DNA of 64,000 nt from Flavobacteriaceae bacterium (GTDB lineage: Bacteria > Bacteroidota > Bacteroidia > Flavobacteriales > Flavobacteriaceae). Shown piece after piece: positions 3,382-58,696 of the stretch. The DNA is taken from contig JABISF010000036.1 in assembly GCA_018699935.1 (NCBI GenBank), forward strand, positions 22,973-86,972, in the 5' to 3' direction. A program made the translations under genes and the position numbers. Within the stretch, counting starts at the first letter, position 1, and each line of letters opens with the position of its first letter. The notes below the pieces were generated by a model. The model was not told the DNA's origin, searched no databases, and was given only the letters and a program-made list of their open reading frames with translations.

Positions 3382-3858
3382 GTGCAAAAAAAATCATCCT
3401 TTACCGTCGCTGAGGTGCAAAAAAAATTGGAGCACTATTGTGCCTACCAAGAGCGATGTCATTGGGAAGTCGAGCAAAAATTAAAAAGCTATGGAATGAT
3501 CCCCGAGGCAAGGGAAGTCATCTTGACCCAACTGATCCAAGACAATTTTTTGAACGAAACCCGTTTTGCGCAAAGTTTTGCTCGGGGCAAGTTTCGAATC
3601 AAAAATTGGGGAAAACAACGTATTGTTCGTGAACTCAAAGCCCGATACATTTCCGATTTTAACATTAAAATTGCACTTAAAGAAATTCCCGAACAGGAGT
3701 ACAACACCGCTTTTTGGAACTTGTTTCAAAAGAAAAAGTTAGCGGTTAATCACTTACCGATTGAACAACAAAAGAAAAAAATTGCTGCATTGCTCCTTTA
3801 CAGAGGTTGGGAAAGCGAAAAAGTGTATGAAGCACTCACTTCTATCTCACAAAAATAA
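3382..3858 (+). CDS. recX: Regulatory protein RecX
   Basis: 158 aa; RecX-like helical repeats (WEVEQKLKSYG, LNETRFAQSFARGKFRIKNWGKQRIVRELKAR); GTG start. Confidence 0.85.
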   Translation: MQKKSSFTVAEVQKKLEHYCAYQERCHWEVEQKLKSYGMIPEAREVILTQLIQDNFLNETRFAQSFARGKFRIKNWGKQRIVRELKARYISDFNIKIALKEIPEQEYNTAFWNLFQKKKLAVNHLPIEQQKKKIAALLLYRGWESEKVYEALTSISQK

Positions 3859-56877: not shown

Positions 56878-57462
56878 ATGTTTACCGGAATTATTGAGGC
56901 CTTTGGACGCATTACAGCCCTTGAAAAAGAGGATCAAAACCTGCATTTAACCCTCCAAAGCCCATTGGCTGCTGAACTCAAAATTGATCAAAGCCTTTCG
57001 CACAATGGGGTTTGCCTCACGGTTGTGGCCTGCAACGACAGTGAGTACACTGTTACGGCAATTAAAGAAACCTTGGACAAAAGCAATTTGGGAGTGCTCC
57101 AAATCGATGCTTTGGTGAATTTGGAACGCGCCATGAAATTGGGCGATCGATTGGATGGACATATTGTTCAAGGGCATGTGGATCATACGGCAAAATGTAC
57201 GAATATTCGTTTTGAGGGTGGAAGTTGGGTCTTTTCTTTTGAATATACCTCCGCCACGCCGCACGTTACCATCGAAAAAGGGAGTATCACCGTGAACGGT
57301 GTAAGCCTAACGGTGGTCGATTCCAAAACCCATGGTTTTTCTGTAGCCATTATTCCCTATACCTACGAACACACCAACTTTCACACGTTCGAAGTTGGAA
57401 GTATTGTCAATATTGAATTTGATATGATTGGTAAATACATCAGTAAACTCCACGCCAAATAA
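56878..57462 (+). CDS. ribE: Riboflavin synthase (alpha chain)
   Basis: MFTGIIEAFGRI..., SHNGVCLTVV, GHIVQGHVDHTA; start at ATG 56878, not the track GTG/TTG at 56848. Confidence 0.96.
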   Translation: MFTGIIEAFGRITALEKEDQNLHLTLQSPLAAELKIDQSLSHNGVCLTVVACNDSEYTVTAIKETLDKSNLGVLQIDALVNLERAMKLGDRLDGHIVQGHVDHTAKCTNIRFEGGSWVFSFEYTSATPHVTIEKGSITVNGVSLTVVDSKTHGFSVAIIPYTYEHTNFHTFEVGSIVNIEFDMIGKYISKLHAK

Positions 57463-57560
57463 ATATTTCAGCATTAAATAGTCCTGCGCTATAATAACAG
57501 AAGGTTGAAAACTCTGTTTAAAAAAATTCGGAAAGGTGTCATTTCTCTTAAATCATTTTA

Positions 57561-57568
57561 TAGCTTTG
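57561..57568 (+). promoter_or_regulatory. Predicted -7 box (TAGCTTTG) of the oxygenase leader transcript
   Basis: Matches TAnnTTTG; no convincing -33 element seen. Confidence 0.45.
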
Positions 57569-57615
57569 TATGGATTCGTTAACGCTGTGACAACAGCCAT
57601 GTCTAATTAATGTAG

Positions 57616-57691
57616 AAAGGAGGTGCTTATGTTTTATGAAAATCATTTGAGGAATTTGAGACAAGAAGTGCCTACTGTGGCACGATTGTGA
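57616..57691 (+). promoter_or_regulatory. Shine-Dalgarno plus leader micro-ORF (MFYENHLRNLRQEVPTVARL)
   Basis: AGAAAGGAGGTG (57614-57625), 5-nt spacing from AGGAGG to ATG 57629, 20 codons, TGA 57689-57691. Confidence 0.6.
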
Positions 57692-57711
57692 AAAATCCTT
57701 ATCTACGATAA

Positions 57712-57738
57712 AGCGAGTCGATGGGCTCGCTTTTTTTT
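57712..57738 (+). terminator. Intrinsic terminator immediately upstream of the oxygenase start codon
   Basis: AGCGAGTC-GATG-GGCTCGCT (8 bp with one GU) followed by a T8 tract. Confidence 0.85.
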
Positions 57739-57745
57739 ATTCGCT

Positions 57746-58696
57746 ATGGGAGAAATACCACATTTAGATTTAAATCGTTTTTTATCCGGTGATGCTCGTA
57801 TAAAGCAGACTTTTGTCGAAGCGATAGGAAAAGGCTTTAACGAAATTGGTTTTGTCGCCTTAAAAGGTCATTTTTTGAGTGCCGAACATATTTCCCAATT
57901 GTACGCCAGCGTGCAGTCCTTTTTTCAACTCCCCTTAGACGAAAAAATGAACTACCATATCGAAGGAGGGGGTGGCCAACGTGGCTATACACCCTTTGGT
58001 AAAGAATCGGCAGAAGGTAAAAATATTGGCGATCTCAAAGAGTTTTGGCATTTTGGTCAAGAAGTGGCTTCGGATTCCGAATATCACGCAGACTATGCCC
58101 CCAATGTTGCGGTTCCCGTAATTCCTCATTTTAATAGATTGGGGATGGAAACGTTTCGCTTATTGGAAAAAACAGCATTGGAAGTACTACGTGCCATAGC
58201 CTTGTATTTGGAATTGGAGGAAAATTATTTTGACCCCTACGTAAAGGAAGGAAATTCCATATTACGCGCAATTCACTATCCTCCCATTACCGCTGCACCT
58301 AAAGGTGCCGTTCGAGCAGCAGCTCATGGCGACATCAACCTGATCACCTTGTTGATGGGGGCACAGGGAAGCGGCTTGGAAGTAAAAAATAGAAAAGGTG
58401 AATGGGTGGCCGCTGTGGCAGAGGCAGACGAATTGATGATCAATATCGGAGATATGCTTTCTCGTTTTACGAATAATCACCTGAAATCCACCATCCATCG
58501 GGTGGTAAATCCTCCCAAAGCACAGTGGGGAAGTTCACGCTACTCCATCCCTTTCTTTATGCACCCAGTCAAAAACATGGATTTGAGTTGCCTCCCCTCC
58601 TGTGTGGACGCCTCTCATCCCAAACAGTTTGAAGACATTACTGCCGGGGCGTTTTTAGAGCAACGTTTACAGGCTTTGGGTCTAATAAAAAAATAA
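57746..58696 (+). CDS. Isopenicillin N synthase-like 2OG/Fe(II) oxygenase
   Basis: 316 aa; HGDINLITLLMG (HxD), distal HRVVNP and RYSIPFFMHP. Confidence 0.9.
   Translation: MGEIPHLDLNRFLSGDARIKQTFVEAIGKGFNEIGFVALKGHFLSAEHISQLYASVQSFFQLPLDEKMNYHIEGGGGQRGYTPFGKESAEGKNIGDLKEFWHFGQEVASDSEYHADYAPNVAVPVIPHFNRLGMETFRLLEKTALEVLRAIALYLELEENYFDPYVKEGNSILRAIHYPPITAAPKGAVRAAAHGDINLITLLMGAQGSGLEVKNRKGEWVAAVAEADELMINIGDMLSRFTNNHLKSTIHRVVNPPKAQWGSSRYSIPFFMHPVKNMDLSCLPSCVDASHPKQFEDITAGAFLEQRLQALGLIKK

Follow-up and report, generated by a model that had tools for sequence, protein, structure and literature searches.

Within the 64,000-nucleotide stretch of Flavobacteriaceae DNA analysed here (the window), a compact set of transcription and translation signals lies directly before a gene for a 2OG-Fe(II) oxygenase. 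The initial annotation had picked out its elements, between 57561 and 57746, and all of them are found where it placed them. Together with the segments that pair with one another in the two predicted folds of the RNA, they are:

57561..57568, + strand: -7 promoter element TAGCTTTG, of the Bacteroidota TAnnTTTG type, recognized by TAnnTTTG at no more than 39 nt upstream of P1 in homologues
57584..57597, + strand: hairpin P1, GCUGU-GACA-ACAGC, close to the RNA's 5' end (93.5% of cells paired)
57613..57627, + strand: extended Shine-Dalgarno sequence (SD), UAGAAAGGAGGUG(CU), recognized by its duplex energy with the 16S tail and its genome-wide rarity
57629..57691, + strand: micro-ORF of 20 codons plus TGA, encoding MFYENHLRNLRQEVPTVARL (stop at 57689-57691), open in 64/64 homologues
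57648..57653, + strand: ORF arm UGAGGA (codons 7-9), which pairs with the 16S-tail mimic in the open state (duplex energies, covariation)
57667..57672, + strand: AGUGCC, closed-state partner of the SD tail GGUGCU (57622-57627) and, in the open state, part of P3 (94.7% of cells paired, the closed-state pairing being scored as helix 49-54/101-106)
57668..57683, + strand: hairpin P3, GUGCC-N6-GGCAC, inside the ORF, with equivalents GGUGC::GCAYC in L052 and L096
57696..57705, + strand: 16S-tail mimic UCCUUAUCUA, just past the stop codon, resembling the 16S 3' tail
57710..57738, + strand: intrinsic terminator AAAGCGAGUC-GAUG-GGCUCGCUUU with its U tract (99.8% of cells paired)
57746..58696, + strand: 2OG-Fe(II) oxygenase gene (Pfam DIOX_N and 2OG-FeII_Oxy), the downstream neighbour, outside the conserved unit

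The element is about 165 nt long (the predicted promoter-to-terminator transcript is ~160-170 nt), and it is conserved as a whole: an alignment of 20 copies retains the promoter box, the P1 hairpin, the SD, the ATG, an ORF of 20-21 codons, the post-stop (U)CCUUAUCUA and the terminator. DNA searching at E<=1e-3 yields matches in 22 of 41 genomes, every one of the window's own genus; 21 of these 22 span the element (the match in G011 is a 32-nt upstream stretch only, and is left out for that reason), which amounts to 21 of 25 own-genus genomes. The elements first read from the letters, each at its coordinates and conserved in alignment, are thus real, and SD, micro-ORF and hairpin are kept in close relatives.

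Scanning all species genomes of GTDB r220 with a pattern built from P1 and the SD retrieves 92 stretches, all but about five of them in marine Flavobacteriales MAGs or SAGs; the labels are Flavobacteriaceae, Crocinitomicaceae and Cryomorphaceae. The outside matches (Lachnospiraceae, Hungatella, a deltaproteobacterium and two Rhodococcus stretches with an inverted 16S 3' end) have no relation to the element, which accords with chance. A relaxed pattern, which could miss a diverged form of the element, matches 13 of 400 family genomes, all of 1.7-2.2 Mb; with this pattern, and with 298 genomes of the order added, broad occurrence in Flavobacteriaceae was not found, the matches being confined to these small-genome lineages. 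A phage origin was considered and rejected: viral contigs contain no match. The RNA of the window folds better than its shuffles (z = -3.0), and neither the window nor 12 homologous loci contain an Rfam 15 match above the gathering threshold, or anything meaningful at a relaxed E-value. No known RNA family explains the elements, and such families are rejected as an identification; no description of the element was found in the open-access literature searched. The element is an RNA family missing from Rfam. The homologue statistics that follow are for 64 non-redundant copies.

Is the element a leader of the oxygenase gene, as the initial annotation proposed, or a gene in its own right? Its two ends speak to the question. 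Of the 64 homologues, 53 have TAnnTTTG in the 39 nt that precede P1 (3.25 are expected after shuffling), and P1 itself has 4 of 6 pairs changed on both sides. At the other end, the 10-bp stem at 57710-57733 with its following T run ranks first in strength among 26 terminator-like sites between 45000 and 64000; 7 of its 10 pairs are changed on both sides, and a covarying terminator is present in all 64 copies. (A separate observation: the terminator loop GATGG, at 57720-57724 of the window, is invariant in all homologues while the stem covaries freely, which points to a function of the loop itself.) What lies beyond the terminator varies: of 100 loci surveyed, with some genomes counted twice, 57 have the oxygenase on the same locus, 15 have a GT2 glycosyltransferase and the remainder have neither of the two; the flanks include an ETF gene and an esterase-like one on the opposite strand, and the terminator is kept where nothing co-directional follows. 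An element with its own promoter and terminator and with varying downstream genes is not a dedicated oxygenase leader. As a general function that reading is rejected, the same promoter-to-terminator unit standing alone elsewhere or preceding a glycosyltransferase and unrelated or opposite-strand genes. Judged from its sequence, the RNA is an independent small gene, with a TAnnTTTG promoter at one end and a terminator at the other, both its own.

The upstream side has its own regularities. The common gene order is pdxA(-), ribE, nhaP, RNA, and this order is ancestral. In most relatives nhaP, the gene of an Na+/H+ exchanger, ends ~49 nt before the RNA; the window (57462-57560) has no nhaP between ribE and the RNA, and loci of the L043/L063 type lack it too. 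Loci of the Crocinitomicaceae-labelled type have a divergently oriented gene for an Na/Ca exchanger upstream of the RNA.

The attenuation that the initial annotation had in mind needs to be weighed separately: translation of the micro-ORF, or the fold around the SD, would control read-through of the terminator into the oxygenase in cis. The 57 oxygenase loci invite this reading, as does the spacing in the window's clade, in which the gap between terminator and oxygenase ATG is 0-20 nt and leaves no room for a promoter. Control by read-through predicts a weaker terminator at oxygenase-linked loci; none was seen, the stem having an energy of -16.4 kcal/mol there and of -15.8 to -17.2 kcal/mol elsewhere, and the terminator is just as strong at loci where a glycosyltransferase, genes on the opposite strand or nothing related follows. 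Nor does any conserved pairing compete with the terminator stem: the conserved alternative pairings involve SD, ORF and mimic only. In L026, moreover, a promoter-like site, TATCTTTG, is placed between terminator and oxygenase and suggests that the oxygenase of that locus has a promoter of its own. Attenuation is accordingly quite improbable. The assertion that the oxygenase can be reached only through the terminator holds for, at most, the clade with the 0-20 nt gap; in that clade, we infer, local read-through may have been added to the independent function of the RNA gene.

What, then, sets this small gene apart? Its ribosome binding site is one that Bacteroidota hardly use. The anti-SD of Bacteroidota ribosomes is sequestered by way of bS21, bS18 and bS6 (PMC9976891). 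The extended SD of rpsU is used by ribosomes lacking bS21 (McNutt et al. 2023, PMC9976891); in F. johnsoniae, ribosomes without bS21 translate extended-SD mRNAs (PMC9976891), and SD-dependent control in Flavobacteriales has been judged to be limited to rpsU (McNutt et al. 2023, PMC9976891). In the 64-kb window, the SD core AGAAAGGAGGTG at 57614-57625 has no second match, even with 1 mismatch allowed. The 16S tail with which it is compared is that of relatives (the window's own MAG has no recoverable 16S 3' end): it reads GGAACACCTCCTTTCTAG (CACCTCCTTTCTAG in the comparison with the mimic), and was verified in three genomes. The 12-nt complementarity that the initial annotation had drawn from an expected tail is therefore real; most homologues (AGAAAGGAGGTGT) are complementary over 13 nt. 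Every one of the 64 homologues has a strong SD; their SD::16S duplex averages -19.6 kcal/mol, which is stronger than the -13 kcal/mol taken as the threshold for rpsU-type, bS21-sensitive translation from an extended SD, and GGAGG is separated from ATG by 5-7 nt.

In the window's own genome the arrangement GAAAGGAGGT-N2-8-ATG is found only at the micro-ORF and at rpsU, which carries GAAAGGAGGTG. The SD is thus exceptional for the group, as had been claimed, and for the genome, but it is not unprecedented. (A technical note: rpsU with an extended SD is present in two copies, at the different loci L021 (G000:C1:2142-2162) and L023 (G000:C78:4170-4190), one of them on a possibly contaminant contig; both loci adjoin acyl-CoA dehydrogenase and integrase-like genes, and the second, L023, probably comes from a contaminating relative.) Among 29 genomes checked, all with the small RNA, rpsU is without the extended SD in about ten, and there the small RNA keeps its own. 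In the genomes of L034, L052, L063, L070, L083 and L105, with their SD-less rpsU, the micro-ORF is the only GAAAGGAGG-N3-9-ATG site; three extra SD hits in other genomes are within or antisense to other genes. (The SD-less rpsU genes are among loci L133, L136, L143, L147 and L149-L154; the bS21 of L143 has His in place of Tyr54.)

The SD serves an ORF that is real, on the evidence of its aligned copies. Its frame has no internal stop in 64/64 homologues, and it is 19-21 codons long in 63; the other two frames are interrupted by stops in 61/64 and 64/64. Indels preserve the frame: in the window a one-base insertion turns TGTAA into TGTGA and leaves the stop where it was. Two clades give a raw pN/pS of about 0.5. 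(In single lineages decay is possible: L050, near 7249, has lost the ATG (TTAGG), and L038, at 3545-3711, has lost the usual stop, its ORF running to 25 codons.) From lineage to lineage the peptide changes greatly (MSYDNHLRNSRQQVPTNGPL, MSIEKNSKELVGLLVPFVHLF and MSNTKYSSWNGLDDAFLVI are examples), and in L032 and L052 completely; it is thus less well conserved than the RNA.

One possibility is that the product is a functional micropeptide, acting on the ribosome by mimicking the C-terminal tail of bS21 (KAQY54-IQ-HLRD, compared with MxY-xN-HLRN). The two share a Y-x3-L-R register, with a shuffle p of about 0.004-0.05 in several Flavobacteriaceae genomes. The similarity is nonetheless absent from the L052/L070/L083/L096 type and from the codon-inserted L061 and L097, so that the mimicry, tested against shuffles, proves inconsistent between lineages; and the L-R codons coincide with an RNA pairing arm, UUAAGG, which accounts for their conservation. 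Mimicry of bS21 is very improbable.

The RNA pairings into which the ORF enters fall into two alternative sets. The closed structure consists of P1, SD::mimic, the SD tail with GGURCC, UGUCU::AGACA and the terminator; the open structure pairs the ORF arm with the mimic and ACAG with CUGU. Since the mimic is common to both, the two states exclude each other there. RNAalifold proposes the pairing of the SD with downstream segments; the mimic pairs with UAGAAAGGA of the SD in 95.8% of cells, and the SD tail GGUGCU is accompanied by its partner, as AGUGCC or AGUGUC, in L001, L103 and L090. For the closed structure over 64 sequences, 96.2% of cells are paired, compared with 41-52% when the partners are slid, and covariation exceeds that of all 500 shuffles, most of it coming from P1 and the terminator; for the open structure, 82% are paired, compared with 46-53% slid, and the covariation score again lies above all 500 shuffles (these shuffle controls, and the swap control below, ignore the relatedness of the copies). 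Over the SD the closed helix is nearly invariant and covaries weakly, mainly by wobble exchanges with few double changes, and its conservation may be due in part to that of the SD and the ORF. In ORF-arm::mimic, 5 of 7 pairs are changed on both sides, and cognate duplexes (mean, -8.85 kcal/mol) are more stable than swapped (-7.38) or shuffled (-6.27) ones. Hairpin P3 varies across homologues, and is for that reason moderately supported. Both SD::mimic and ORF-arm::mimic are, as far as the alignment speaks, conserved, the open pairing covarying more clearly. Neither state dominates the predicted ensembles across all species: at 15 C, the CCUU of the mimic has a mean pairing probability of 0.35 with the SD and of 0.53 with the ORF arm.

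These properties lead us to favour, with moderate confidence, the view that the autonomous small RNA gene acts as a switch of translation, set off by 30S subunits with an exposed anti-SD. The gene would have been inherited across streamlined marine Flavobacteriales, its transcript encoding a peptide of 19-21 residues behind an extended SD that normal Bacteroidota ribosomes, with the anti-SD held by bS21, bS18 and bS6, would use poorly. In the closed state the post-stop mimic UCCUUAUCUA would pair with the SD, and a segment of the ORF with the 3' part of the SD and the start region. Opening would shift the mimic to codons 7-9 and leave the SD free. The mimic could be displaced from the SD by the 16S tail (about -20 kcal/mol against about -10; the calculated energies are -19.6 for SD::16S and -9.7 for SD::mimic), and the micro-ORF would for that reason likely be translated mainly when the anti-SD of 30S subunits is exposed. 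Initiation on the SD, and with it translation of the micro-ORF, would fall to subunits lacking bS21, for example; replete ribosomes would manage it poorly, and the RNA would stay closed. We infer the trigger (bS21 or anti-SD exposure), translation in vivo and the output, be it peptide or RNA. The RNA, on this evidence, probably reports how many ribosomes have an exposed 16S tail. The suggestion, made at the outset, that anti-SD availability is sensed here is to that extent a good hypothesis; what falls away is the RNA's role as an oxygenase leader. A bolder and tentative version, which we consider doubtful, has the RNA as a dedicated ribosome-state sensor: it would gauge what share of the 30S subunits have their anti-SD exposed, remain the sole SD-dependent message in genomes whose rpsU no longer has an SD, and yield a product with a feedback effect on bS21 or on the maturation of ribosomes.

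Alternatively, the RNA itself might be the effector, a trans-acting or dual-function sRNA that pairs with mRNA targets or titrates 30S subunits whose anti-SD is exposed, its ORF being secondary. It has its own promoter and terminator and a conserved ORF, as a dual-function sRNA should; single-stranded and loop segments (the GATGG loop, the linker) are near-invariant; and the RNA elements are kept where the peptide is poorly kept between lineages. Against it stand the frame of the ORF, preserved in 64/64 homologues, and its stop, held in place in spite of an indel (TGTGA in the window, as against TGTAA), and this alternative is unlikely.

If the translational switch is the correct reading, SD-dependent translation in Flavobacteriales has in the small RNA a candidate for its second client. 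The anti-SD is hidden on Bacteroidota ribosomes, and among Flavobacteriales genes rpsU alone was previously thought to be controlled through an SD. Another gene, unannotated and conserved in marine Flavobacteriales, that carries the rpsU signal and keeps it in some genomes where rpsU has not, would mean that specialised ribosomes, poor in bS21, have another client; the small RNA would also supply a ready-made reporter of anti-SD exposure.

How does such a switch compare with systems already known? Small RNAs of Flavobacteria make up some Rfam families (6S-Flavo, Flavo-1 and others); neither these two nor any other Rfam 15 family matches the window or the 12 homologous loci. In the small RNA an anti-SD segment has two alternative partners, one of them the SD, as in translational riboswitches and SD-sequestering leaders; it differs from these in having neither a downstream main gene nor a known ligand, in placing the sequestering segment beyond the stop codon of the ORF under regulation, and in its proposed competing ligand, which is 16S rRNA itself. 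With leader-peptide attenuators it has in common a short ORF followed by an intrinsic terminator, but it lacks a conserved antiterminator overlapping the terminator, a run of regulatory codons and a conserved downstream gene. The nearest likeness is to the rpsU mRNA (PMC9976891), with which it shares the SD GAAAGGAGGTG, a duplex energy near -20 kcal/mol, suitable spacing, a short transcript of its own and the same genomes. The two part company in what follows the SD: rpsU encodes bS21 (64 aa) and autoregulates; the small RNA has an ORF of 20 codons, and is structured, with a built-in mimic of the 16S tail and a covarying terminator.
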